Source: Gemmatimonadales bacterium
Lineage (GTDB): Bacteria > Gemmatimonadota > Gemmatimonadetes > Gemmatimonadales > GWC2-71-9
Direction of reading: 5' to 3'
DNA length: 64,000 nucleotides
NCBI GenBank assembly: GCA_036500345.1
Contig: DASYCE010000011.1
Location: 1 to 64,000 of the forward strand
Shown here: positions 19,936-36,258 of the stretch, in pieces
Position numbering within the stretch: the first letter of the stretch is position 1
Layout of the letters: each line of letters opens with the position of its first letter
The notes under the pieces: generated by a model
The model's database searches: none
What the model was told of the DNA's origin: nothing
What the model saw: the letters and a program-made list of their open reading frames with translations, nothing else
Made by a program: the position numbers and the translations under genes

Positions 19936-20123
19936 ACTGCATCGGGATTGGATGGCGCAGTGCTACCAGTGGGGGGACGCGCCGACTATGTTCGCCGACG
20001 TGTCTGGCGGGCGGAGTTTGCGAGGAGGGCGTGGTTGGGAGCGGGCGGCGGTATCGATCGCTTCGAGATATGGCCCTTTTCCCGAATTGAAGTGTCGTGT
20101 AAGTTGTTCCGCCGCATGAGTTT

Positions 20124-20198
20124 CGGGGCGTAGCGCAGCCCGGTTAGCGCGCCTGCTTCGGGAGCAGGAGGTCCGGGGTTCAAATCCCCGCGCCCCGA
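20124..20198 (+). tRNA. tRNA-Pro (CGG), integration target of the island
   Basis: A 75-base cloverleaf. The acceptor CGGGGCG pairs with CGCCCCG. The anticodon stem is CCTGC/GCAGG with loop TTCGGGA, giving CGG. The T-arm is CGGGGTTCAAATCCCCG. From position 20155 its 3' half, plus 3 bases beyond the gene, is repeated exactly at 36065-36111, marking it as the attachment site of a tRNA-targeting integrase. The gene itself remains complete. Confidence 0.95.
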
Positions 20199-20201
20199 TG
20201 A
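20155..20201. other. attL: 47-bp direct repeat at the left end of the island
   Basis: Identical over 47 bases to 36065-36111. The identity begins in the anticodon arm (GCTTCGGGAGC) and runs past the tRNA 3' end to ATGA. This is the usual layout for tyrosine-recombinase elements that integrate into a tRNA and restore its 3' end. Confidence 0.93.
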
Positions 20202-20274
20202 GTTTGCAAATGATTGCCCTGCTTCGGTCTACACGACTTTGCGGGGTTTTCGTTTTCGGGGGTTTTCCTGCGTT

Positions 20275-20320: not shown

Positions 20321-21466
20321 TCAACTTTCCAGCACTCTTCTCGCTGCTTGCGCAGCGCGCATCGCCTCTTCGCTTGGGCGCTGGTAGCACTTCACCACCG
20401 TCATCGGGTCCTTCCATCCTCCCAAATCGCAGAGGTCTCGCAGTCCCACATGGCGAAGTTCTGATGCAAAGTTGCGTCTGAACGCATGCCATCCCCTTCC
20501 CTTCACCACCGACAACTTCGCGAGCAGCTGCGCCTTCTGCATCCAATCGCGTGCAAGGTCGGTACCAACCTGCCTTGCTGTTGCCTTTACTCCGGGAAGG
20601 ACGGGAGTATCTCCGATGCCTGGCGCTTGTCGCCGAGCATTTTCGAAGGCACATCGTGCAGTATCTGTCATCGGCGTCACATGTTCGTTGCCGATTTTAT
20701 CCGCTTCCTCTCGCCACGTAATGCGTCCCGTAGCGAAATCGATGTCCCGCCACTGAAGTGAAAGAATCGCGTTGAGCCGATGCCCCGTCTCATGCGCAAG
20801 TACGAGCAAGCAGCCGAACTGCCATGGAAAGGAGTCGGCGGTGGCGAGCAACGCGCGGTACTGTGGTTCGGTGAACACCGGACGATGCGGTGTGCCATCA
20901 TCGGTGATCTTGAGCGTTGCCAGCGGATTCCGTTCAAGGAACCCTGCGGTCACTCCCCACGTCAGAATCCCCTTAAGGAGCCGGAGATCGTAGGCAATAG
21001 TGCGCCGCTTGAGCGGGAAGTGCTTGCCGCGGTCCGCCTTCTTGCGAGGTCTGAGGTCGCCGAGGCGGCGCCTCTCGACTTCGAATCGTGCAACATCTCG
21101 CGCGGTGAGTTCGTACGCAAAACGCTGTTTCCCGAGGATGCCCCGGAAGAGCGCGATAGACGCCTTGTCGTGTCCCTGGGTTGATAGTGCTTTGGTTGGC
21201 GTAACGGTCCGTTCGTAGTTGTCAAAGAGCGTGTCGAGCGTGACGTCTTCCGGGCGGTCGGGGAGTCGCAACGTTGCCGCGAGTTCATCGGCTTGCTGCT
21301 TGGCCCGTGCGCGGTCGGAGTGTCCCAACGATTCGCGAACCTTCCGACCGTCCCGCCTATACTCGGCGAACAACCTTCCGGAGTGGTGTACAAAGATCCG
21401 GACCCTGTTCGCTCCCTTCTCGCCGCTGATGTATTTCCAGCGGGCCTGCGTGGTAGCGCGTGGCAT
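20321..21466 (-). CDS. Tyrosine recombinase / integrase of the island
   Basis: A 381-residue integrase that would recombine attP with the tRNA-Pro 3' end. An N-terminal arm-binding domain (about 5-65) and core-binding domain (about 75-180) precede the catalytic domain. The catalytic set is complete: Arg230 in ETGHRLNAIL, Lys257, His327 and Arg330 in GWHAFRRNF, Trp351 at the His/Trp position (LGGWKDP), and the nucleophile Tyr361 in VVKCYQRP. The gene reads towards attL. Its ATG overlaps the stop of the upstream Xis-like gene (TAATG). The complete catalytic set suggests it is still active. Confidence 0.95.
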   Translation of the reverse strand: MPRATTQARWKYISGEKGANRVRIFVHHSGRLFAEYRRDGRKVRESLGHSDRARAKQQADELAATLRLPDRPEDVTLDTLFDNYERTVTPTKALSTQGHDKASIALFRGILGKQRFAYELTARDVARFEVERRRLGDLRPRKKADRGKHFPLKRRTIAYDLRLLKGILTWGVTAGFLERNPLATLKITDDGTPHRPVFTEPQYRALLATADSFPWQFGCLLVLAHETGHRLNAILSLQWRDIDFATGRITWREEADKIGNEHVTPMTDTARCAFENARRQAPGIGDTPVLPGVKATARQVGTDLARDWMQKAQLLAKLSVVKGRGWHAFRRNFASELRHVGLRDLCDLGGWKDPMTVVKCYQRPSEEAMRAAQAARRVLES

Positions 21467-21855
21467 TATTTGCCTCCATCTGGCGTCAGGTGTGACGCCC
21501 GCGCTGTCTGCCGAGCAGGTCGAACATGCAGGGGGCGGCCGGGAAGCCGCAACGGCTTCCGGGGTAGGTCGGCTGCCCGGACCTTGGGAGCATTCTTCCG
21601 CCCCCGGTTGACCAGCCGACCCGTCCGCAGCATTCGCCCGATGGAATCGGGGCTGTAGCCGCTCCGGAGGGCCGCCTGGGTGAGGTTCAGGAGCTCGGTC
21701 CCCTCATCCCGGGCGACCGAGTCTAGGTCGGCCAACAGCTCGTCTAGAATAGGGCCGACCGGGGCGCTGAAGCCGCGCCGGGACCACTCGTCCCGAAGCC
21801 CGACCCACTTGGCGTTGAAGTCGTGACGCGTCACCGCTCGGCCTATTCGTCCCAT
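21466..21855 (-). CDS. Small helix-turn-helix protein, possible excisionase
   Basis: A 129-residue basic protein between the integrase and a MerR-like gene, overlapping both. The helical core LTQAALRSGYSPDSIGRMLRTGRL is followed by RKNAPKVRAADLPRKP. It looks like a winged helix of the excisionase/MerR class, with a wing formed by the basic stretch. Its place immediately upstream of int suggests a directionality factor. The C-terminal ~25 residues are low complexity. No enzymatic motif is seen. Confidence 0.6.
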   Translation of the reverse strand: MGRIGRAVTRHDFNAKWVGLRDEWSRRGFSAPVGPILDELLADLDSVARDEGTELLNLTQAALRSGYSPDSIGRMLRTGRLVNRGRKNAPKVRAADLPRKPLRLPGRPLHVRPARQTARASHLTPDGGK

Positions 21856-22742
21856 TCGCGGAGAATGTCATCGACAATTGCGACGGCATCGTCTCGCGTC
21901 GACTCCGGATCGATTTCGTTTCGAAGCGCGTCCTTCACCTCTCGCGCAACGTCTCGGCGATCCCATTCGTCCCAGAGTTGGGTCTCGCGTTCCGCGTGTG
22001 AGAGCCCGTACTGAATCACTTCCTTGCGGCGCTGGCGGTTCTTCGCTTCTTCGCGTTCGTCGGCCGCATGCCGGGCAGTCCGTTCCCGCTCGTCGCACCA
22101 CGGTTGCAGGATCTTGTCGACGCGTACCTTGATGTATTGGTACGCATGCGCTGACGCCGAACGCGGGAATTGCGTCGCGGTAACGTAGGAGGCGAGATCG
22201 CGCGTCACCTCGGCGCGGTGCTCCACAGGCGCGCCAGCAAGAGCCGCCACCATATCCCCGTACTGCCTCAGCCCGGACAATCGTCGCTCGTCGTCAGCTT
22301 GGGCGCGTACCTGTTCGTCTCGCTCTCGCGAGGCGCGCTCTGCGGCCCGCGCTTGGGCATCGCGCCGTTCAGCTACCTCTCGCACGCGCCGATCGATCTC
22401 GTCGCGCTGAATCGCGATCTTGCGGACTTGAAGGTCCGCCCGCGCCTGATGGACGGAATCTTCCCACGGTTTGGATGGGGCCGACGACGGGCTGAGCGGT
22501 TCGTCTTCGGTGACGTAGTCAAACTCTGGCATCTCGTCGCTATCCGGCGGATCATCGCTCTGCCCGTTCGCCCGTGAACTCTCGTGAGCTCGTTCTGACC
22601 GAAGCTCCTCGATCTCACGTTCGTCGTACCGGCGCTCGCCGCCCGGTGTCCGTACCGGGTGGACGAGGCCCCGCGCCTCCCACCGCCGGAGCGTCGCCTG
22701 CGCTACGCCCAGTCTGATCGCAGCTTCGTTGATTCGCAGCAT
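21843..22742 (-). CDS. MerR-like DNA-binding protein with long charged helical region
   Basis: A 299-residue protein. The N-terminal ~50 residues form a MerR-type winged helix: INEAAIRLGVAQATLRRWEARGL, then HPVRTPGGERRYDEREIEEL. The middle (about 55-165) is acidic and then highly charged, rich in Arg/Glu/Ala, and likely a long helix or coiled coil. The C-terminus (about 170-299) is helical, with no recognised effector domain. AAGGAAGG lies before the ATG. It heads the int operon and faces the repressor gene across a short gap with two palindromic operators. A regulator of integration and excision is plausible but not shown. Confidence 0.65.
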   Translation of the reverse strand: MLRINEAAIRLGVAQATLRRWEARGLVHPVRTPGGERRYDEREIEELRSERAHESSRANGQSDDPPDSDEMPEFDYVTEDEPLSPSSAPSKPWEDSVHQARADLQVRKIAIQRDEIDRRVREVAERRDAQARAAERASRERDEQVRAQADDERRLSGLRQYGDMVAALAGAPVEHRAEVTRDLASYVTATQFPRSASAHAYQYIKVRVDKILQPWCDERERTARHAADEREEAKNRQRRKEVIQYGLSHAERETQLWDEWDRRDVAREVKDALRNEIDPESTRDDAVAIVDDILREWDE

Positions 22743-22857: not shown

Positions 22858-23637
22858 ATGGCAATACCCACTCATTCTGATCTGAGCGGCAAGGTCAACG
22901 CACTGATCGAGCGATTCTTCGGAGGTAATCGGAGCGCCGCCGCGAGGACCTGGCGGGTGCCGCAGCCGACGGTGCAGCGCCTTGCGGTGGGCGACACCGA
23001 GACGGTTCGGGCGTCGACACTCATGAAGATCGCCGCGACACACGAAACCTCCGTTGACTGGCTATTGAACGGGCGGGGACCGGATCCTCTGGCTACTGAC
23101 CCGCTGCCCTTCGTCGAATACACGGACCTCGAACAGATCGTCGACAGTTTGGGGCTATCTGCGGTGACGCGCCGGTACGTCCTCGACCTGCCGAAAACGA
23201 TCTCCACCGCCCATTCAATTCTTTGCGACTGGGGAACAGTCGGACCGGACGCCCCGCCCTCACAACCGGACGACGTCGTTCAGGTGGCGCGAGATGCGAA
23301 ATACAAGGCATCAGCGCTTCAGTATGTGAGTTGGGCCTATTTGTTCGATGGGATGATCAAAGCGTACGGGCGGGAGCGTGTTCGGGAGAAATTGGAGAGC
23401 GAAGTTCGAAGAATCAGACTAGGGTTTCATCCAGTTCCGCTGGAACTGATGTGGATGAAAGAGGCGGCTCCAATTCTGGATGCACTCGACGCGCGACTCG
23501 CTCTGTACGGTGGCGGGCCCGTGGGGGTGGCGATGTATGACGATCCGCCGATCCTCGCGCTGAACTCGATTCCACCGGAATCGTCGAAGCCAAAGCGAGG
23601 ACGTCCAGCGAAAGTCCACCGGTCAATGAGGGGCTAA
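22858..23637 (+). CDS. CI-like helix-turn-helix repressor
   Basis: A 259-residue DNA-binding protein. The N-terminal ~75 residues are a phage-repressor-type helix-turn-helix: GNRSAAARTWRVPQPTVQRL followed by ASTLMKIAATHETSVDWLLNG, the CI/Bro-type signature. The C-terminal ~180 residues are not recognised. They are helical (YKASALQYVSWAYLFDGMIKAYG) and show no S24-type peptidase dyad, so cleavage-based induction is unlikely. I use the ATG at 22858; a TTG at 22840 is possible. The stop overlaps the ATG of the J-like protein gene (TAATG), so the regulator belongs to the Hsp70 operon and probably controls it. Confidence 0.75.
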   Translation: MAIPTHSDLSGKVNALIERFFGGNRSAAARTWRVPQPTVQRLAVGDTETVRASTLMKIAATHETSVDWLLNGRGPDPLATDPLPFVEYTDLEQIVDSLGLSAVTRRYVLDLPKTISTAHSILCDWGTVGPDAPPSQPDDVVQVARDAKYKASALQYVSWAYLFDGMIKAYGRERVREKLESEVRRIRLGFHPVPLELMWMKEAAPILDALDARLALYGGGPVGVAMYDDPPILALNSIPPESSKPKRGRPAKVHRSMRG

Positions 23638-26246
23638 TGGATCTTAAGGAGATCACGTGGCAACGGCGGCGCCCCGCATTCGCCATGAATGGCCGCACAG
23701 CCCTATTGCTAGTCTCGATCGCAATATTTGGACGGGTGAACGGCATCGACGCGCAAGAAGTTCGGTATGAGGGCTCTGTCACGAATCATGGGTTCGCTTC
23801 ACAACCAAACCAGAAGGGGCTCATCGGCACGCTCCAATGGAGCGGTAGCGTCGCAGATTCCAATAGCGGGGTGTTGAGAATTGGCGCCCCGCTCAGCGGG
23901 TCAGGAGCCGCAGCGTATTGGACGTGGGACGACACCGTCGTGCTCGGGTCGATCAGCCCCACAGGTGATACCATCTTTTGGCTCGGACGGATCCGCGGCG
24001 ACACGCTGGAAGGCGAATACGCAATTGCGGGAGGCAGCGCCCTGGGTCAGGGCGGTACTTGGCGAATGGCACGTACTGCCGGTCCCCCATTCTCAGAGAC
24101 ACCCGATACAGATCGGATTGACCTTACGACGCTTGTGAGGATGACGGCTCCGTTCCGTAGCTTTGCCGATGATGTAAATTCGATTGGTCAGCCGCCGAGT
24201 GCAGTGGACCATTCGGGTGCCTCGGATTCGGCAACCATTCCGGCAGTGACCGATTCACCGAACTCGCAAACCACTCCACCTGAACGCAATCTGAATCGCA
24301 TCATTCCGATTCTGGTACTCGTTGGAGTCATTGTACTCGCGCTAACATGGTTTTTTCGGCGGGCGGAGCCCATCGCAAAGAGACGCGCCCGGGCCCAGGC
24401 GAGACCGGGCAGCGTAACGGTGTCCAGCAAATCAACGGGGACTAGAACTGTGCCAGCCGAAGCCCGCTGGCAAGTCACGGGTGATCTGGACGAACCCGCC
24501 AAGAACAGAGTCAGCACCGCGGCGGTTGCGTGGTTAGGTCGCAATGCCTTTCGCACTTTGGGTCTGCCGGGCGATGCCACAATGAGCGCCATTTACGACG
24601 CGGATCAGGCGGCAAGGAGATCCGTTCGACTCGGGACCCGGAGGCGAACGGTGTGGGATCTGGACTTCATCAGCGAACCGAATCGCTCTGATGCGACACT
24701 TCGCGATGCGGTCGGCCGCCTCGCTAACCCGCTGGATCGTGTGCGCGAAAGGTTGTTCTGGGTGCATCAGTGCCCGGATATCGCACGAGCGTCCGCCCAC
24801 GCTCTAGACCAACTCGCATCCCTTTCATCCGGTGTGTTTGGACCCCACGACTCTGCATTCTTCACACTGTTGCACGTGTGCGTGCACGATCCGCTCATGT
24901 TGGATGAACCTCGGTGGCTTGGAGCCATCGCCGCGTGGACTCGTGCGCTAGAAGGAGACGGCTATTGGGCCGCGGTCGTTGCCCTGGAGGCGACCGGCGG
25001 GTTTTCCTCTCCGGCAGCAGAAACGGACATCACGCTTCTCCGTCGGGAAGCGTTCCGGGGGGTCGCCGACGTACTCGCTTCAATCGCCCGTACCGCCATA
25101 GCTGTTGAATCATTGCCCCTCGCTAGCCGAGCTCTCCGGATCTTGACCCAGTCGGCATTGCCAGGACGACCAGAGGTTGAGCTGCTCGCCGACATATTGA
25201 ACCCTCTGCTTCGGGCGCTCGAAACACTTTGCGAAGAGATTGCCACAGACTGTGCCAAGGAGGTCGTCCGTCTCAATGATGCCAGCGTCATTGCCAGCAA
25301 TGTCGCAGCCTGTTCAGTCGGACTAGCGCGCTTTGACTCCCGAATCCCCAACCGGTTGGATGATATCATCGCTCTGGGCGGCTTGGACAGCGCCGTCGGA
25401 AGAGCTGCGCGCGAGGCCGCAGCCATTTGCTTGCGACGACTCGCGACCGACTTCACATGGGGTAACGAGTTCGCTACCGCGGGCGACCTATTGAACCGGG
25501 CGACAGAAGTGGCACGTGGATTGGCTATCTCGGCTCAAATCGAGACAGAGCGAACCAAGGTTCAAGCGACGGCCGCGCACTTCTATGCGCCGATAGCGAC
25601 GATTGATATCAATGGCACTCCGCTGATCGTGCATCGCGACAAGATCACGTTCGGTAATCAGTCGATAGTCCCGCACAATGTTCGCCATATCAAGCTCGGT
25701 ATCTTCAAGAGGTACACAAATGGGCTGAGGACCAGTCAGTCCTATTGCGTTTGGTTGTCCGACGGATCCAAGACAATGACCATTGAATGCGCGGCCGGTT
25801 GGCTCGTGCCCGGTTCCGTAATCGAGACCCGTTGGAAAGCGACCGTCGGCGCAATCTGGACTGCCGTAGTGGCGCGGATGCTCGACCAGTGCATCAATCA
25901 GCTGCGGAGCGGCGATGGCTTTGAAATCGGCAACCTACGATTCGACAAACGCGGCGTTCATCGCGTCGGCGAGTATTCACCGGTTCACATGGCTCTTTTG
26001 CGGGCGAGACGCCGCGCGTTCGGCGGTGCGAGCGCCGAAGAGCGGCAAAGGTCCGCATTTCATGCAGAATGGAAAGCGGTGTCATTCCGCACCGCCGGCG
26101 GCTCGGTCACAGTGTTCAACGCGAAAAAGGTATTGGCGAGATTTGTGCTTCGCGAGACCTGGAATGCGGTGCTAATCGAACCATTGCTATCGCATCTATT
26201 CGAAGAGGGGCGGCTGTGGGCCGTAATCCAAGAAAAAAGCACCTGA
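23637..26246 (+). CDS. Membrane-anchored J-domain-like co-chaperone candidate
   Basis: An 869-residue protein, first of the chaperone genes. A signal sequence (about 18-39) and a second TM helix (about 222-240) enclose a ~180-residue beta-rich segment that should face outside the cytoplasm. After a basic linker, residues ~303-375 read NAFRTLGLPGDATMSAIYDA, then RLANPLDRVRERLFW. This pattern (N-x-F/Y-R-x-L-G-L-P ... L-x-x-P-x-x-R-x-x-x-x-L-F-W) resembles the J-domain-like modules found beside bacterial Hsp70 genes. The canonical HPD is absent. Residues ~380-640 look helical, TPR-like. The C-terminal ~230 residues are mixed and unknown. Start alternatives exist (Met17). No assigned family. Confidence 0.6.
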   Translation: MDLKEITWQRRRPAFAMNGRTALLLVSIAIFGRVNGIDAQEVRYEGSVTNHGFASQPNQKGLIGTLQWSGSVADSNSGVLRIGAPLSGSGAAAYWTWDDTVVLGSISPTGDTIFWLGRIRGDTLEGEYAIAGGSALGQGGTWRMARTAGPPFSETPDTDRIDLTTLVRMTAPFRSFADDVNSIGQPPSAVDHSGASDSATIPAVTDSPNSQTTPPERNLNRIIPILVLVGVIVLALTWFFRRAEPIAKRRARAQARPGSVTVSSKSTGTRTVPAEARWQVTGDLDEPAKNRVSTAAVAWLGRNAFRTLGLPGDATMSAIYDADQAARRSVRLGTRRRTVWDLDFISEPNRSDATLRDAVGRLANPLDRVRERLFWVHQCPDIARASAHALDQLASLSSGVFGPHDSAFFTLLHVCVHDPLMLDEPRWLGAIAAWTRALEGDGYWAAVVALEATGGFSSPAAETDITLLRREAFRGVADVLASIARTAIAVESLPLASRALRILTQSALPGRPEVELLADILNPLLRALETLCEEIATDCAKEVVRLNDASVIASNVAACSVGLARFDSRIPNRLDDIIALGGLDSAVGRAAREAAAICLRRLATDFTWGNEFATAGDLLNRATEVARGLAISAQIETERTKVQATAAHFYAPIATIDINGTPLIVHRDKITFGNQSIVPHNVRHIKLGIFKRYTNGLRTSQSYCVWLSDGSKTMTIECAAGWLVPGSVIETRWKATVGAIWTAVVARMLDQCINQLRSGDGFEIGNLRFDKRGVHRVGEYSPVHMALLRARRRAFGGASAEERQRSAFHAEWKAVSFRTAGGSVTVFNAKKVLARFVLRETWNAVLIEPLLSHLFEEGRLWAVIQEKST

Positions 26247-26653
26247 AATCCGCCAAGGCGCGGAAAACGATTGCACAGCCGCCGAAACTGACGGCTCTCG
26301 ATGGGGACTCTGGCAACGTCTCGATCTCCTTGGAAGCCCTCGGTGAGCTTGGAGTCGAATGGTGGCGGCTCGATCGGTGGGCGCTCGACGTACCCGACGA
26401 TCGTTTGGTCGCGAGGCATGTCGCTCGCCGTTTATCGCGAGTGCTACAAGCAATCGGCGTCGAAGTGGTCGATCTCACTGGAAAACCCTATGACGCGGGA
26501 ATGGCCGTCGAGGTGCTGGAAACGATCAGCGACCCGACTAAGTCGGCAGTCGGCGACGCGGTGGGTGAAACCGTTGCGCCTTTGGTATCGTTGTCGGGCC
26601 GAATAATACGCCACGGACAAGTCGTGGTGCACAGGGGGATGAACCAACGATGA
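26216..26653 (+). CDS. Small GrpE-like nucleotide exchange factor candidate
   Basis: 145 residues from a GTG preceded by AGAGGGG. The start lies inside the end of the previous gene (31-base overlap). A basic N-terminus is followed by a helical stretch with DDRLVARHVARRLSRVL. The C-terminal region reads GVEVVDLTGKPYDAGMAVE, then VGETVAPLVSLSGRIIRHGQ with VVVHRG. This parallels the GrpE beta domain: G-V/E, a G-x-x-(F/Y)-D-P/A-x-x-x-E/A-V segment, then a G-x-V-x-x-x-x-x-x-G-x-x-x-x-x-R/I strand pair ending in V-V-V. The long GrpE dimerisation helix is much shortened. Stop and Hsp70 start overlap (ATGA). Confidence 0.55.
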   Translation: MGRNPRKKHLKSAKARKTIAQPPKLTALDGDSGNVSISLEALGELGVEWWRLDRWALDVPDDRLVARHVARRLSRVLQAIGVEVVDLTGKPYDAGMAVEVLETISDPTKSAVGDAVGETVAPLVSLSGRIIRHGQVVVHRGMNQR

Positions 26654-29190
26654 CAACGCATCTTCAGTATGGCATCGACCTCGGCACCACAAACTCGTGT
26701 GTCGCACGAGCTACTGGGCTGGACCTGCGGGTTTATCAAAACAACGACCAGATGAACGTAACGCCCTCCGTCGTTCGCGTTCTTAAGACAGGTCGCGTCA
26801 TCACGGGTAAGCGCGCGTACAACGCGATCGCGGACGACGCGGCTAACATCGCTCGTGAATTCAAGAGATGGATGGGGCAGAAAGCGGGTAAGGACTTTCC
26901 GTCCACCGGACGGTCGATGTCTGCTGAAGAGCTTTCTGCCGAAATAATCAAATCACTTCGGGATGATGTTGCACGCGCCGAGGGCGAGTCACCAACTGCC
27001 AGCGTAGTAACAGTCCCGGCTGCGTTCGGAGCCTTGCAATGCGAGGCCACGGCCCGCGCTTGTAACCTGGGTGGGCTAGTTCAGGCACCCCTCCTCCAAG
27101 AACCTCTCGCGGCAGCAATCGCCTACGGCATTGCTCCGGGCGCGCGAGATCAACGCTGGCTCGTCTTCGACTTCGGCGGTGGCACCTTGGACGTGGCAGT
27201 TGTTTCCACAAAAGACGGCCGTTTGAGCGTACTCGAACATCGAGGGAACAACTTACTGGGTGGGAAAGACATCGACCGCGCGATCGTCGAGCACGTCTTG
27301 CTCCCCGCCGTCAAAGCAAGTTTCCGGCTGCCCGATCCGGCCGAAGACCCCGCCCGCTTCGCTCGACTCATGCAACACCTGCTTGTTAGCGCGGAAGAGG
27401 CTAAAATCGACCTGTCGTCAACCGAATCTGTCGTCGTGAGTTTGATTGATTTGGGGCTGGATGCCGACGGGCGTGCGATTGAATTGGAGCTTTCCGTTAG
27501 CCGGTCGGAATTGGAGCGAACAATGGAGCCGATTCTCGACCGGGCGATTCGACTGGCGGAGGAGGCTTTGACCGGTGCTCGTACTGCTTCCGACGACCTG
27601 GATCGAGTCCTACTCGTGGGCGGCCCGACGCAGAGTCCGCACGTGCGCGATACAATCGCTTCGCGGCTGAAAGCTAGAGTCGACCTTTCCGTGGATCCAA
27701 TGACCGCTGTTGCGAGAGGTGCTGCACTCTATGCGGCGACTATTGAGCGGGAATACCATCCACCGCTGTCCGCTACCAGGGTAACCGCTGAAGCAACTAG
27801 ACAACGCATAGTTCTTGCCTACGACGCAGTCAGTGCAACACTGTCGCCCATAATTGCTGGAAGACTCGACGGCGGCGCCGGACGGGTAAGTGAACTCCGC
27901 CTGGAAACGGATGGTGGGTTCTGGACGAGCGGCTGGCTCTCTCTTCTAGATGGTACATTCGAAACACAACCGATGTTACAAGAAGGAAAGGCATCTCGCA
28001 TTTTCATCTATGGTCGCGACGCAACGGGCACCCTTGTCGACGTCGAACCGGATGAACTGTCTATTCGTCACGGCCTGGTGGTAGCGTCTCCACCTCTGCC
28101 GCACACGCTTAGCGTCGAGGTCATGCGAGCCAACGGCAAAATGGAGCTCGATCCAATCTTCAAGCGTGGCACGTCACTCCCTGCTGAGCGAAGCGTGCGG
28201 TATCGGGCTGACAGGTCCGCTAAGCCAGGGCTTGCTGAGACATCCCTAGCAATCAAGCTCTGGGAAGGAGAGGCCTTTAGCAATCCATCAGATAACGATT
28301 GGGTCGGCCACGTGACAATTGAGGCGACGGAGATCAGCCGCACGATTCCTGAAGGATCAGAGATCGAGATCACAATTCGCATCGACGCATCCCGAATTAT
28401 CACCATCGAAGCTTTCGTGCCAATCTTGAATCAGCATTTCGCCGATCGGCTGTTTGTCCCGAAGGAGCAGGAGAAGGACTACGACGAAATCGCGTCGACG
28501 ATGCCTTCCGAGATTGAGGATTATAGGGCACGACTCACGAACATCAGGTCAGCGATGGATGGGATCGCGGGATCAGGCGACAAGCATTCGGAAGAAGTCG
28601 GTCGCGTTCAGGCCGAACTCGAAGACTTGACCGCGCAGTCGAAACAATATTCCGGTCTAGGGAGCGAGGACCCCGACCAAGCGAAGCGCCTCGCGGAAGG
28701 AGCGCGCAATGTGCGCGCGCGCCTGTCCAACTTGGAAGGTGCCGTCGGAGGCGTCGGTCGGGCATCCTCCTTGATCGAAGCAGTTCGGGCAACGCGCGAG
28801 AGTACACGCGAAGTCGTGGAGCGCTTTGGAGACGCCATCGAAAAGAAGGAATTGATGTTGCTGGAAGGTCAGCTCGGACCTAGGTCAGGAGCAGGGTCCG
28901 ACGAGCAGTTGGAGAAGCTGCTCAGCGCGCTGAAATCGTTACGGTGGCGTGTTCTGGCTGCGCAGGACTGGTGGTGGCGCGAGTTGTTCGATTCGCTCAA
29001 GGCACCGGAAAGGGGATTGGAACGCCATCCGGGAGCGGTAGAACTCTTCTCGGAAGGTGACGCTGCCGTACGCAAAAGCGATGGGACGCGGCTGCGGCAC
29101 GTGGTGAACGAGCTATGGAAACTGCTGCCGAAGGATCAATTGCAGAAGGATCAGGAGCGCGTCATTCGCTCGGGGCTTCGGAGGTACTAG
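26650..29190 (+). CDS. Divergent Hsp70 (DnaK-like) chaperone
   Basis: An 846-residue Hsp70, against ~610-640 for DnaK. The ATPase domain (about 1-370) is intact: phosphate-1 loop GIDLGTTNSCVA (8-19), phosphate-2 VFDFGGGTLDVAVV (172-185), the NLLGGKDIDRAI segment and the adenosine motif LLVGGPTQSPHV (321-332). Residues ~380-490 are an extra beta-rich domain not present in DnaK. A substrate-binding beta sandwich follows (about 500-590, with GTSLPAE). The C-terminal ~250 residues are helical and charged, with a Trp-rich stretch (AAQDWWWRELF), and have no DnaK-type EEVD or acidic tail. The ATG overlaps the GrpE-like stop. Confidence 0.88.
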   Translation: MTTHLQYGIDLGTTNSCVARATGLDLRVYQNNDQMNVTPSVVRVLKTGRVITGKRAYNAIADDAANIAREFKRWMGQKAGKDFPSTGRSMSAEELSAEIIKSLRDDVARAEGESPTASVVTVPAAFGALQCEATARACNLGGLVQAPLLQEPLAAAIAYGIAPGARDQRWLVFDFGGGTLDVAVVSTKDGRLSVLEHRGNNLLGGKDIDRAIVEHVLLPAVKASFRLPDPAEDPARFARLMQHLLVSAEEAKIDLSSTESVVVSLIDLGLDADGRAIELELSVSRSELERTMEPILDRAIRLAEEALTGARTASDDLDRVLLVGGPTQSPHVRDTIASRLKARVDLSVDPMTAVARGAALYAATIEREYHPPLSATRVTAEATRQRIVLAYDAVSATLSPIIAGRLDGGAGRVSELRLETDGGFWTSGWLSLLDGTFETQPMLQEGKASRIFIYGRDATGTLVDVEPDELSIRHGLVVASPPLPHTLSVEVMRANGKMELDPIFKRGTSLPAERSVRYRADRSAKPGLAETSLAIKLWEGEAFSNPSDNDWVGHVTIEATEISRTIPEGSEIEITIRIDASRIITIEAFVPILNQHFADRLFVPKEQEKDYDEIASTMPSEIEDYRARLTNIRSAMDGIAGSGDKHSEEVGRVQAELEDLTAQSKQYSGLGSEDPDQAKRLAEGARNVRARLSNLEGAVGGVGRASSLIEAVRATRESTREVVERFGDAIEKKELMLLEGQLGPRSGAGSDEQLEKLLSALKSLRWRVLAAQDWWWRELFDSLKAPERGLERHPGAVELFSEGDAAVRKSDGTRLRHVVNELWKLLPKDQLQKDQERVIRSGLRRY

Positions 29191-30729
29191 ATGAGCACAT
29201 CCAAACGCCCGAGCCTCCCGTCCGGCCATCCAGTAGACGGGGGTTCACGAATCGAGAAGCCACTACATGTCGACGGCGTCATAGAGGTCTACAGTCTGGC
29301 CGGAGATTCCGCGAGAGTCTTCGTGCATGTTCCAGGCGCCAGTGAAAACCCCTCTGCCGTTGGCGTTCGGCTAGCATCATGGTGGGACGCGTTGGGCAAT
29401 ATGCTCGCTACGGTCACGACGGTCCCCGGCTCGCAGCGAGGTTTTGACGCAGTTGTTGAGGTGACAGGCCGCTGGCTTGGTTCGAGGGGGAGCCAGAATG
29501 GGCATCCCATGGCGGAGCCTGAGTTACTGGAACTGCTCAGCGACCTCTCCTCGGTATCCGCAATCTCGATGGCGTGCGGCGGCGAGCCGCTGCTTATGCC
29601 GTCGCTGCTCTGGTGGCCGCGGCCCAATGGGGCGCGTGCGCTTCCGATTTACCTTGCCCCGAATCTGCCTGATGAGGCTCGGCTGGTGAGAGAGGCCGGC
29701 CGGCTTGTCTACGAGTTGGCATCCGGCATCGCGTTGGCTGACGTGAATGGACCCGCGCCACTCATATCGAAGTGGGTCAGGTCGATCAGCCCGGCGTTTG
29801 CCGAACTGCTCCGGCGTTGCCTGTCGGACGGACCCGATCGTATTAGCACATTGGCCGAGCTGGACCACTACTCAGCGAATGGACCGAGCGCCAAGCCTCC
29901 TCCAATCGCCGGTCCGGGCCTCGCAGTGAGCGAACGCGCGGGAAAGGGGCTTTCTGCCGTCGCCGGGATGCATGATCTGAAATCGCTACTCGAGAGGGAG
30001 GTCGTCGGACCCATCCGCGATCCAGAGCCGTACAGGCGATATGGCTTAGGCACTCCAAACGGAGTGCTCCTCTACGGACCGCCTGGGTGCGGCAAGACAT
30101 GGATCGCGCGGAAGCTCGCCGAAGAAGTCGGCCACTTCTATGTCGAGATCATTCCGTCCGAGATTGCCAGCCCGTACATCCACGACAGCGTGCTTCGTAT
30201 CCGTCGGCTATTTGATACAGCAGCCGAAAATGCTCCGGCGATAGTCTTCATCGACGAATTTGAGGCGTTGGCGCCGTCGCGTGCCGATCTTGGCGGTCAT
30301 CAACAATACAAGAGCGAAGAAGTCAATGAATTCCTCGTGCATTTGAATGCTTGCTCAGACAAACATGTGTTCGTAATTGCGGCCACTAATGAGCCACAGA
30401 AAATTGACCCGGCAATTCGGCGCACTGGCAGACTCGACAAAATTATCTACGTCGGCCCGCCTGACCAGGAGGCGCGCATCGAAATGCTGCGCATGCATCT
30501 TGCCAAGCGCCCCGTCGCCCCAGACCTCGATTTTGAGGGAATCGCATCGAGACTGGAAGGCTACTCTGCGAGCGACATACGATTCCTTGTCGATGAGGCT
30601 GCGCGCGGCGCCCTAGGATCGAAGAGCGATATCACCAATGATATTCTGATCGCGGCCCAAGGCCGAGTCCCCGCCTCGGTAAGGCCCGAGGATGAACTGC
30701 GCTTCCGGGATATCATGGGACGGGGTTGA
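29191..30729 (+). CDS. AAA+ ATPase with N-terminal pseudokinase-like remnant
   Basis: A 512-residue protein starting directly after the Hsp70 stop. The AAA+ domain (about 255-500) is of the classic FtsH/Cdc48-like clade: Walker A GPPGCGKT (296-303), Walker B IVFIDE (351-356), sensor-1 Asn400 in AATNEP, and arginine-finger region IRRTGRLDK. GYSASDIRFLVDEA follows as the lid helix. The N-terminal ~250 residues carry no recognised unfoldase adaptor. Residues ~160-225 (GRLVYELASGIA, then SPAFAELLRRCLS and DRISTLAEL) resemble the end of a protein-kinase C-lobe, without any catalytic loop. Likely remodels clients passed on by the Hsp70; this is inference. Confidence 0.85.
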   Translation: MSTSKRPSLPSGHPVDGGSRIEKPLHVDGVIEVYSLAGDSARVFVHVPGASENPSAVGVRLASWWDALGNMLATVTTVPGSQRGFDAVVEVTGRWLGSRGSQNGHPMAEPELLELLSDLSSVSAISMACGGEPLLMPSLLWWPRPNGARALPIYLAPNLPDEARLVREAGRLVYELASGIALADVNGPAPLISKWVRSISPAFAELLRRCLSDGPDRISTLAELDHYSANGPSAKPPPIAGPGLAVSERAGKGLSAVAGMHDLKSLLEREVVGPIRDPEPYRRYGLGTPNGVLLYGPPGCGKTWIARKLAEEVGHFYVEIIPSEIASPYIHDSVLRIRRLFDTAAENAPAIVFIDEFEALAPSRADLGGHQQYKSEEVNEFLVHLNACSDKHVFVIAATNEPQKIDPAIRRTGRLDKIIYVGPPDQEARIEMLRMHLAKRPVAPDLDFEGIASRLEGYSASDIRFLVDEAARGALGSKSDITNDILIAAQGRVPASVRPEDELRFRDIMGRG

Positions 30730-30842
30730 CCTATCGACCGCAGACCCGCCTGGCTCCTAGTCCCTCGGTCCAAGGCAGCGCCCTAACAAAGCACCTCCAA
30801 CGGCCGTATAATCTCCGCTCGCCTCGCATCGCCGGAGCCGTT

Positions 30843-31106
30843 ATGGAATTGCTTGTCGTCTGTGCGTTGATAGGACTCTTGCCTGCTGCGATTGCCAAGA
30901 GCAAGGGACACAGCTTCGCGCTCTGGTGGATTTACGGCGCGGCACTCTTCATTATTGCGCTACCGCATGCTCTGATCATGAAGCCTAGCAAGACAGGATT
31001 GGAAGCCGAAGCTATCGCGGCAGGCAAGAAGAAGTGCCCATACTGCGCCGAAATGATTCAACAAGAGGCGAAGGTTTGTCGGTATTGCGGAAAAGACGTC
31101 GCCTAG
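30843..31106 (+). CDS. Small membrane protein with C-terminal zinc ribbon
   Basis: An 87-residue protein with two hydrophobic segments (about 3-18 and 26-46) and a C-terminal zinc ribbon KKCPYCAEMIQQEAKVC then RYCGKDV (C-x2-C ... C-x2-C). This layout is common in small bacterial membrane proteins of unknown function. It lies about 110 bases after the AAA+ gene on the same strand and overlaps the next gene by one base (TAGTG). It is probably the sixth gene of the operon. Confidence 0.7.
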   Translation: MELLVVCALIGLLPAAIAKSKGHSFALWWIYGAALFIIALPHALIMKPSKTGLEAEAIAAGKKKCPYCAEMIQQEAKVCRYCGKDVA

Positions 31107-31426
31107 TGTCAACACCCCAGAGACGTATCATCGGCGCACTTGCGGTGTTGGCACTCGGAACCTTGTTCTACGCTCTTTGCGGAATTTATACGATTCAACC
31201 AATCGGTGCCCTGCCGGAGGGCAAGACGTTGCTCGTGTGGCGGCAATCTGGCTCGCCCTTCTTTGATTCACCTGACGGCACATGCTTACGGCGCACCGGG
31301 AGCGTTTCGATTTTATGCCGACTCATAGCACTGAAAGCCGCACCCGTCGACCACATTATCATGCGCTTTGCCTACAGCCGATGGGCGTACATGCAGAGTA
31401 CCGATGGCGCGACATTCGACCGCTAG
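31106..31426 (+). CDS. Hypothetical small membrane protein
   Basis: A 106-residue protein starting at a GTG that overlaps the previous stop. One TM helix (IGALAVLALGTLFYALCGIY, about 9-28) is followed by a ~75-residue extracytoplasmic or cytoplasmic tail with PEGKTLLVWRQSG and SPDGTCLRRTG, not recognised. It is the last gene of the plus-strand cargo. The 190 bases after it, up to the convergent ATPase gene, hold nothing I can support. Confidence 0.5.
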   Translation: MSTPQRRIIGALAVLALGTLFYALCGIYTIQPIGALPEGKTLLVWRQSGSPFFDSPDGTCLRRTGSVSILCRLIALKAAPVDHIIMRFAYSRWAYMQSTDGATFDR

Positions 31427-31615: not shown

Positions 31616-33070
31616 TTAGCCAGGACGAGACTCGCCCCACAGCGCGTCGAGGACCCCCGCACCCAGCCAACGGGCGAGCTCGCCAGTTGGTCGTTGCTTG
31701 CCGATAGCCGCACCAACACGCTGCGTCCAGTGTACCCCCTTGGGATCCAGAATCTTGCTAATCTCTGAAATCACGACCTTCACATCGTCCGATACTCTAT
31801 CCCATGACCGTACCGCCGCTAAGCGGCTAGCCTTATCTCCAAATTGGTTCGCAGCAGCTTCGATCCTCGAGCATCCGGCATCCCAGGTCAGTCCCGGCTC
31901 CAACGACGCGAGAACGTCGGTAGTTAGGTAGAGGTTCTCAGCCTCACGACACTCCGTGCGCAAAAACCGCACATGCCTCTGTTGTGGATTGTCTCCCACC
32001 GGAAGCGGTTGATCGCCATCGAGGAGAGCGAATCCTGCCGGCATAGCAGCGTCGTCCCTCAGGCTAGCGAACACCCGTTCGAGACTAACCTGGTATTGTC
32101 GAATTTTTTGGCCTTCGCACGGAACCACCGCGAATGACGTTATGTGGTGACGTGGCACTTGACTCCAAATCCGGTAGTCATCGTCGCCCTCCACAAGCAA
32201 TAGCGGAACTCCGAAGAGCGGGCCCATGAGCGCGTGGCCGCCCAAAACGGAAGCAAGCTCCCGAAGAGCTTCTGAGAACGGCACCGCGTGCAACTCGGTC
32301 TTCGTGCGATCCATGTAGATCTGTGACGTGTTCTCTTTCCCGAATTGCCCAATCGCCGCCAACAGCGTCGTGCTGTGCGTCGCGACCACAAACTGCAACT
32401 CAAAACGATCGCCTACCTGTACTAAGAAATCGGCAAAACGGACCTGAAGATCCGGGTGGATATGTGCATCTGGCTCGTCAACAAGTACGACTCGTGGCAC
32501 TCCCGCTTGAAGCTCCCAAATCGCCGCAATTGTGAGAATGTCGATTCCAATGCTTAAGAGCTGAGCTTCGCCGCTGCTCAATTGATCCACATTCTTAATC
32601 TCTTGACCGTCGCTGGCGCGACTAAGGCGATATGGCGGCACGGCGCTTCGAAGCTTGACGTCGAAGTCAGGCAACAACATGGAAAGAAAGCGCTCAAGCT
32701 CATCTGGCGCGGGAGTCCCAACTGCACCTGCTCGCCCTGCTCCCCGCTCCATGAAATACGCTTGCACTCTCGCGAGCGTGTGGCTGCGGTATTCTGGTGT
32801 AAAGTTCCTTTGTGACTGCTGACTGCGTTCCTCAGCGCTCAATTGAGGCTTCAGAAAATTCGCGTTGTAGTTGAATTCGCCTGTGCGTTCTGGAACGACA
32901 TAGTGTGTACCGATTCGGTTGTGGTCCCGCCAAGAACGGAGCAAGAGGCTCTTCCCGCTGCCATTCTTGCCGAAAAGTACCGTCAATGCGGTGAGATCAG
33001 CGAGCTGCCATGCCCCGCCGCCGAGAACGGCAGCTCGTGGAACGCTCGATTGCTGGGTGTAGACCTTCAT
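31616..33070 (-). CDS. OLD-like ABC-type ATPase with TOPRIM domain
   Basis: A 484-residue protein. The SMC/ABC-type ATPase half has Walker A GKNGSGKS (34-41), signature LSSGEAQLL (164-172), Walker B VVLVDEPDAH (194-203) and switch His in VATHS (232). A TOPRIM-like half follows with LLLVEGDDDYRIW (Glu294) and FALLDGDQPL (Asp351/Asp353). This is the architecture of OLD-family nucleases found in anti-phage systems such as OLD, Gabija and retron effectors. I use the ATG at 33070; the frame opens 16 codons earlier. A gene for a 2-TM protein lies 85 bases upstream on the same strand. Nuclease activity is inferred. Confidence 0.8.
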   Translation of the reverse strand: MKVYTQQSSVPRAAVLGGGAWQLADLTALTVLFGKNGSGKSLLLRSWRDHNRIGTHYVVPERTGEFNYNANFLKPQLSAEERSQQSQRNFTPEYRSHTLARVQAYFMERGAGRAGAVGTPAPDELERFLSMLLPDFDVKLRSAVPPYRLSRASDGQEIKNVDQLSSGEAQLLSIGIDILTIAAIWELQAGVPRVVLVDEPDAHIHPDLQVRFADFLVQVGDRFELQFVVATHSTTLLAAIGQFGKENTSQIYMDRTKTELHAVPFSEALRELASVLGGHALMGPLFGVPLLLVEGDDDYRIWSQVPRHHITSFAVVPCEGQKIRQYQVSLERVFASLRDDAAMPAGFALLDGDQPLPVGDNPQQRHVRFLRTECREAENLYLTTDVLASLEPGLTWDAGCSRIEAAANQFGDKASRLAAVRSWDRVSDDVKVVISEISKILDPKGVHWTQRVGAAIGKQRPTGELARWLGAGVLDALWGESRPG

Positions 33071-33155
33071 TCCAGCCTCCCCGGCCGAGAAAGCCACAGC
33101 TGCCAGATAGACGGGCAACGCATGTCTGTGGCTCGCGTGAACGCAACGGGTTCGC

Positions 33156-36064: not shown

Positions 36065-36111
36065 GCTTCGGGAGCAGGAGGTCCGGGGTTCAAATCCCCG
36101 CGCCCCGATGA
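36065..36111. other. attR: 47-bp direct repeat at the right end of the island
   Basis: An exact copy of 20155-20201, the 3' part of tRNA-Pro plus 3 bases. The 5' half of the tRNA is missing, so this is not a functional tRNA. The distance between the repeats gives an element of about 15.9 kb. Confidence 0.93.
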
Positions 36112-36228
36112 ATTGGAAGTGATCGCCTCGCTTGGGTCTACATGACTGAGCGAGGTTTTCGCTTGCCCCGTCTTCCGAAGCGCTGACGCGACGTTGCGCC
36201 TGATGGCGTGCCATCCCCTTTCCTTGAC
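36112..36228 (-). pseudogene. Decayed integrase remnant beyond attR
   Basis: Minus-strand codons at 36178-36228 read VKERGWHAIRRNVASAL, closely matching GRGWHAFRRNFASEL of the intact island integrase, including the catalytic H-x-x-R. The bases directly after attR (36112-36160) also resemble those directly after attL (20202-20250), with GGTCTACA-GACT and GGTTTTCG shared. About 190 bases between these two blocks, which should encode the Tyr end and arm sites, are missing. This is the left edge of a second, mostly deleted element. Confidence 0.7.
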
Positions 36229-36258
36229 GCCCGCCCGTTTGTTCTGTATTGTAGAACA
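36224..36258 (+). promoter_or_regulatory. PadR promoter with overlapping palindromic operator
   Basis: TTGACG (36224-36229), 17 bases, TATTGT (36247-36252). The inverted repeat TGTTCT-N7-AGAACA (36240-36258) covers the -10 box. A start about 7 bases downstream coincides with the ATG at 36260, so the transcript would be leaderless. Autorepression by the PadR product is the obvious reading. Confidence 0.6.

Follow-up and report, generated by a model that had tools for sequence, protein, structure and literature searches.

The window analysed here is a 64,000-nucleotide stretch of DNA from a Gemmatimonadales bacterium (contig DASYCE010000011.1, positions 1 to 64,000). At positions 22858-31426, inside a genomic island, it carries five tightly overlapping genes on the plus strand, followed by two small genes for membrane proteins. 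The five genes and their junctions (TAATG, an in-frame GTG, ATGA and TAG/ATG) are all present where an earlier note, made from the sequence of this stretch alone, had placed them. The core of the locus is a four-gene mobile module encoding a J-like protein that lacks the HPD motif, a GrpE-like protein, a divergent Hsp70 and a Cdc48-class AAA+ ATPase.

The identities of the Hsp70 and the AAA+ protein are certain. The motifs recognized earlier in both are accompanied by strong Pfam matches (HSP70, E = 9e-70; AAA, E = 2.5e-33). The Hsp70 (26650-29190, plus strand, 846 residues) consists of a nucleotide-binding domain (NBD), an insert of about 110 residues, a region resembling the beta part of the substrate-binding domain (SBD) and a helical tail. 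The NBD aligns with that of DnaK and its phosphate and adenosine motifs are intact. The insert separates the NBD from the SBD-beta-like region, where residues 501-588 are collinear with the DnaK SBD but match it weakly (1.9 bits). The protein scores 248 bits against the NCBIfam DnaK model, well below the 822 bits required. The AAA+ ATPase (29191-30729, plus strand, 512 residues) has intact Walker A and B motifs and an intact Arg-finger region, as in a classical AAA module. Its closest relatives of known structure are Cdc48/p97 (PDB, E = 2.4e-94); it has a single AAA domain in place of their tandem pair, and its N-terminal region could be assigned to no domain, including the Cdc48/p97 N-domain. 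The best PADLOC match is IetA (E = 7e-30), and the score of 99 bits lies below the NCBIfam cut-off of 510.

The GrpE-like nucleotide exchange factor (26216-26653, plus strand, 145 residues) begins with a GTG codon. Single-sequence scans stayed below threshold (Pfam E = 0.07, 13.2 bits against a gathering cut-off of 25.8 bits; NCBIfam E = 0.02), and the best PDB sequence match of the family alignment was GrpE with an E-value of 0.03. The GrpE fold, and with it the identity assigned in the earlier note, was confirmed by structure prediction. The AlphaFold2 model has a mean predicted local distance difference test (pLDDT) score of 83.6, and its first 12 Foldseek matches in the PDB are all GrpE (E = 2e-6 to 4e-3), the next match having an E-value of 1.5. 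The family profile also finds open reading frames in 113 of 395 Gemmatimonadota genomes; nine of the ten that were checked proved to be canonical GrpE when compared by BLAST with the GrpE of the host.

Further loci were sought with the subfamily-specific part of the Hsp70 in GTDB genomes and IMG/VR, with whole Hsp70s in plasmids, and with Hsp70-AAA DNA in E. coli genomes. The four-gene combination recurs in eight bacterial phyla. Among 53 loci of the Hsp70 subfamily, GrpE was found at 41, the AAA gene at 42, the J-like gene at 41 and all four genes at 33, while the complete set was absent from all 27 other Hsp70 loci that the scan yielded. This is the recurrent linkage on which the earlier note had made its proposal depend. 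The two control loci counted as having GrpE are a truncated true module (L074) and a locus beside an ordinary GrpE (L098). When only loci with enough flanking DNA are considered, all four genes are present at 30 of 45, the remainder being without the AAA gene or GrpE, or having a gene missed by the caller. The GrpE and Hsp70 genes are joined by the same 4-base overlap in 26 of 52 cases. The module is rare, occurring in 2 of 5426 E. coli genomes and 7 of 395 Gemmatimonadota genomes. Phage genome records gave no full-length Hsp70 match at E <= 1e-20, only matches at the level of the NBD with 30-48% coverage.

The module occurs in three layouts. The window type has the order J-GrpE-Hsp70-AAA and is found in Alphaproteobacteria, Acidobacteriota (where the AAA gene was not seen), Elusimicrobiota and two viral contigs. 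In layout I the order is J, GrpE with a coiled coil, one or two Hsp70s, a kinase/AAA fusion and TerB; its hosts are mostly Bacteroidota, together with Gammaproteobacteria, Chlorobiota and Gemmatimonadota, in the last of which the J-like gene comes at the end. In layout II, GrpE, Hsp70 and AAA are followed by a transmembrane (TM) or periplasmic protein, which is not always present, and then by J; the hosts are Pseudomonadota, Bacillota, Chloroflexota, Myxococcota, Bacteroidota and one member of the Gemmatimonadota. The Gemmatimonadota are thus represented in all three. In the Hsp70 tree, 45 module proteins form one clade with 100/100 support, apart from DnaK and other Hsp70s; one archaeal sequence on a long branch also falls within it. 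Each layout corresponds to a subclade of its own, and the host phyla are mixed inside these subclades.

In layout I, a Ser/Thr kinase domain is fused to the AAA+ protein (L015, 5584-7368; L049, 10607-12358; and others), often followed by a TerB-like gene. The catalytic loop of the kinase mostly reads HN[DE] in place of HRD, and DFG is retained. The N-terminal domain of the AAA+ protein in the window was considered as a decayed protein kinase of this sort and rejected, the profile comparison giving a probability of 1.9%. Three loci in Bacteroidota (L042, L043 and L059) have two divergent Hsp70 genes per operon.

The J-like protein (23637-26246, plus strand, 869 residues) has a predicted TM segment at residues 222-240, a J-like domain from about residue 296, and then TPR-like helical repeats. 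No family member tested had a Pfam match, and the window protein alone had no match in hidden Markov model searches. When a profile of 14 J-like domains was compared with the PDB, 16 of the 18 matches were DnaJ J-domains, the best with an E-value of 0.0056. The family pattern is N-[PA]-[FY]-x-x-L-G ... NPxxR ... W. The profile of the layout II proteins finds no PDB J-domain by itself, and aligns with that of layout I and the window type with 92% probability. These profile comparisons support the assignment of the domain as a probable J homologue without HPD.

The part of the J-like protein that precedes the TM segment should lie outside the cytoplasm. A TM segment is predicted in 20 of 45 J-like proteins; others are accompanied by a gene for a TM or periplasmic partner, with a domain that another layout carries as a fusion to J. 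In genome G087, the extracytoplasmic domain that forms part of the J-like protein in the window is encoded by a neighbouring gene of its own. Similarly, layout I combines J in one protein with a periplasmic domain bearing the motif '[QE][IL]R[YW]C', which in layout II belongs to the neighbouring TM protein, sometimes together with a peptidoglycan-binding domain. A domain that is fused in one lineage and encoded next door in a second one speaks for a functional connection between the J-like protein and its membrane partner. The description of the locus as a dedicated, membrane-linked Hsp70/AAA+ module on a tRNA island is borne out. Near layout II modules, a family of TM proteins that occur as paralogues shares an N-terminal 'GFAGLSSLVSD' motif (L101, 18944-20389; L111, 15716-17455; L112, 8463-9149), with variable extracytoplasmic parts that include a peptidoglycan-binding domain and Cys repeats. 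Another genome of the same family has the extracytoplasmic domain known from the J-like protein of the window, on a contig without the module (L019, G042:C78, 3713-4090).

The island that carries the module is 15.9 kb long and is flanked by two copies of the 3' end of a tRNA-Pro gene. The tRNA-Pro(CGG) identified by ARAGORN (20123-20199, plus strand) is the attachment site. Its 3' end constitutes the left attachment (att) copy (20155-20204, plus strand), which is repeated as a 50-nucleotide direct repeat with 98% identity in the right copy (36065-36114, plus strand). A tyrosine integrase is encoded just inside the tRNA (20321-21466, minus strand; Pfam Phage_integrase, E = 1.5e-12). With an att repeat at the tRNA 3' end and an integrase, this is a tRNA-integrated genomic island, as had been proposed. 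The GC content falls from about 65% outside the island to 56-60% across most of it. No clean empty site was found among genomes of the same genus, where the right flank is not conserved; the only continuation is a 49-bp stretch (36116-36164) with an 84% match to the bases following tRNA-Pro in genome G009. Adjoining the right att copy, 58 bp (36176-36233) match the 3' part of the integrase gene (20454-20511) at 78% and are probably left over from a previous island that used this tRNA. Outside the island, the host genome encodes a full-length DnaK, two DnaJ and one GrpE of its own, showing that the island set is an addition. The same locus is also present in the Gemmatimonadetes record JAJDUP010000006.

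At the other annotated sites the module likewise lies on accessory DNA. Plasmid copies in Shewanella and Aeromonas adjoin the tnsABCDE genes of a Tn7-like transposon, and on two viral contigs the module lies between phage lysis or tail genes, among them an endolysin/amidase, and an integrase or a baseplate gene. In E. coli HeN100 it forms a five-gene operon (L114, 17630-24413) in a tRNA-Phe island with rdrB of RADAR and a remnant of dptF (Dnd). It lies between SIR2 and BREX genes on a Haliscomenobacter plasmid, between Zorya and BREX genes on a Polaromonas plasmid, and, as read from the annotation, by Gabija-like ATPase/helicase pairs in Aminobacter and Sinorhizobium. No defence genes are annotated in 40-kb control stretches taken elsewhere on the plasmids of Polaromonas and Aminobacter. 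The Pfam families in the flanks differ in kind: GmrSD, REase-ARP, KilA-N, relaxase and WYL occur near the modules, and DnaJ, GrpE and Hsp20 near control Hsp70s. A further copy in E. coli NH-21 (L115, 17566-21237) is a remnant in which GrpE and Hsp70 are missing and IS1 lies at the 5' end.

This neighbourhood and mobility make it probable, with moderate confidence, that the module defends its host, or the element carrying it, against phages or rival elements. Defence is a better fit than housekeeping proteostasis or element maintenance for a module that is rare and patchy, rides on unrelated elements and has defence genes as neighbours. A number of observations weigh on the other side. The control stretch of the Haliscomenobacter plasmid is itself rich in defence genes and full of CRISPR genes, so that this site is weak evidence. 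The PADLOC families in the module flanks are not clearly different from those in the flanks of control Hsp70s, with cross-hits by broad helicase models. The annotated neighbourhoods are few, amounting to about eight distinct plasmid and E. coli sites, and the core has no nuclease, protease or toxin. The HPD motif was found in none of the 45 J-like relatives, which makes a classical J/Hsp70 cycle doubtful. The J-like part of the AlphaFold2 model is of low confidence (pLDDT about 35-55); in Foldseek only the TPR-like helical repeats of the protein find matches, none of them at E <= 0.001. The J-like identity given in the earlier note is supported by the family profile, with the qualification that the motif is missing and the model is poor. 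The note's "complete Hsp70 machine" is thus uncertain in the classical sense, in which J stimulates the ATPase. Domains without HPD may serve to tether Hsp70 and not to stimulate it.

Chance adjacency of unrelated chaperone-like genes in one island might be suspected from the single-sequence scans, in which the J-like and GrpE-like proteins fall below the Pfam cut-offs. It is already refuted, and has a negligible probability, since the operon recurs in eight phyla with conserved overlaps and the GrpE fold has been confirmed. A second possibility is that the chaperones serve the replication, partition or assembly of the carrier. The earlier note had named such element maintenance alongside host defence, and of the two it is defence that gains from the defence-gene and mobile-element neighbours. 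Maintenance would agree with the annotated cases, in all of which the module sits on accessory DNA, and lambda and P1 use host DnaJ, DnaK and GrpE (cited in PMC12169576). It is nevertheless improbable, because the carriers are unrelated (tRNA islands, a Tn7-like neighbourhood, plasmids and phages) and no common replication or partition gene was seen among them.

A mobile role in protein quality control or stress tolerance, including envelope stress, would account for the fact that every core protein is part of a chaperone or unfoldase. Membrane anchoring and peptidoglycan-binding partners would suit envelope stress, and mobile protein-quality islands are known (tLST; PMC8290217, PMC8407380). 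The operon and the scanned island genes contain no ClpG, Hsp20 or FtsH-protease gene, however, the genes around the annotated loci serve defence and mobility, and the module itself is rare and patchy, which leaves this role rather unlikely. The remaining alternative is a sub-case of defence, and its weight overlaps that of the favoured interpretation. In a regulated conflict system of the type described by Kaur, Burroughs, Iyer and Aravind, the chaperones would control an unseen membrane effector, and the infected cell would be killed without the phage being cleared. Hsp70, GrpE and a DnaJ-fused protein occur in GAP1-N2 GTPase systems (PMC7159879), and some layouts of the module add a Ser/Thr kinase, TerB domains and diversified TM or periplasmic partners. 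On the other hand, the operon encodes neither a GTPase, vWA or FNIII domain nor any known effector domain, and the downstream genes vary from locus to locus. Such a system is a credible candidate, but a doubtful one.

If the module acts in defence, as favoured here, a mechanism at the membrane can tentatively be proposed. As no core toxin or nuclease was seen, a client would be captured and unfolded at the membrane, and this would be either the activity itself or the trigger of a variable membrane partner. The J-like protein, tied to the membrane directly or through a neighbouring TM protein, would sense and recruit: its extracytoplasmic or helical-repeat part would encounter an infection-derived protein or a disturbed envelope. 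The Hsp70, cycled by the GrpE-like factor, would capture the client, and the AAA+ motor would extract or unfold it, or use it to trigger a membrane-linked response. It is possible, with equal reserve, that this represents innate immunity built around a private Hsp70 cycle, in which an HPD-less J-type membrane sensor passes infection-derived or envelope-bound clients to the Hsp70 and the Cdc48-like unfoldase, and the chaperone machine is the effector and spreads across phyla on phages, transposon-linked cassettes, plasmids and islands. If so, protein capture and unfolding by a mobile, self-contained Hsp70/J/GrpE/Cdc48-type set would be a defence strategy of its own. The family also bears on the evolution of J-domains, as the whole of it appears to keep the J scaffold and the Hsp70 partner without HPD. 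The copy in E. coli HeN100 makes the function directly testable in E. coli.

No described system of this composition was found in a literature search that most subscription papers lay beyond, in agreement with the earlier note, which could name none; the main text on DefensePredictor does not mention Hsp70, DnaK or GrpE. IetAS consists of the AAA+ protein IetA and the protease IetS, and tLST comprises ClpG, Hsp20 and an FtsH protease. Although IetA is the best PADLOC match, the AAA+ protein of the module is far closer to Cdc48/p97 (E = 2e-94 against 7e-30), and no protease partner was seen in the scanned island genes. The resemblance to tLST (PMC8290217) is that of a mobile protein-quality-control island with a different parts list, and none of the tLST chaperones looked for was found in the scanned island genes. 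The cellular DnaK-DnaJ-GrpE/ClpB machinery similarly combines an Hsp70, a J protein, an exchange factor and an AAA+ motor acting on clients, but in the module the motor is of the Cdc48 class, the J-like protein is membrane-tied and HPD-less, and the genes are mobile and come in addition to the set of the host. Phages are known to depend on host Hsp70 and J proteins, and one NLR-like defence protein requires DnaJ (PMC12169576). The type IV restriction systems called CoCoNuTs (PMC11090510) have an Hsp70-like protein, CnuD, in an anti-phage operon, and some have a CDC48-like ATPase. They need a McrB GTPase and McrC-like parts, which are missing from the module operon, whereas the module has an Hsp70 with intact nucleotide motifs and a GrpE. 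The nearest described relative is the Hsp70-GrpE-DnaJ theme of the GAP1-N2 GTPase conflict systems (Kaur et al. 2020, PMC7159879), where HSP70, GrpE and a DnaJ-fused protein surround a GTPase and an FNIII-repeat protein. Both have an operon-linked Hsp70, GrpE and J-bearing partner near the membrane and a predicted conflict function; the module differs in having no GTPase or FNIII protein in the operon or scanned island genes, a Cdc48-type AAA+ motor and a J-like protein without HPD. It is thus taken here for an undescribed variant among chaperone-based conflict systems, with a real chance of being a kind of its own.

The first of the five overlapping genes (22858-23637, plus strand, 259 residues) encodes a helix-turn-helix (HTH)-like protein that had been taken for a CI-like repressor belonging to the system. 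It has no profile match in Pfam, PADLOC or NCBIfam and no relative at other module loci, and this assignment was abandoned. Downstream of the AAA+ gene lie a 126-residue protein with two TM segments and a zinc ribbon (30726-31106, plus strand; Zn_ribbon_3, E = 2.4e-6) and a single-TM protein of about 107 residues (31103-31426, plus strand). Their TM segments agree with the earlier note, which had both as membrane proteins; conservation alongside the module was not seen for either. Further island cargo includes an AAA_21/AAA_15 ATPase (31616-33118, minus strand) similar to the defence ATPases PtuA, AriA, GajA and OLD type (E down to 2e-17). Upstream of the operon, a MerR-type HTH protein is encoded at 21843-22742 (minus strand), the N-terminus of which resembles the MADS defence protein mad1 (E = 7e-11).

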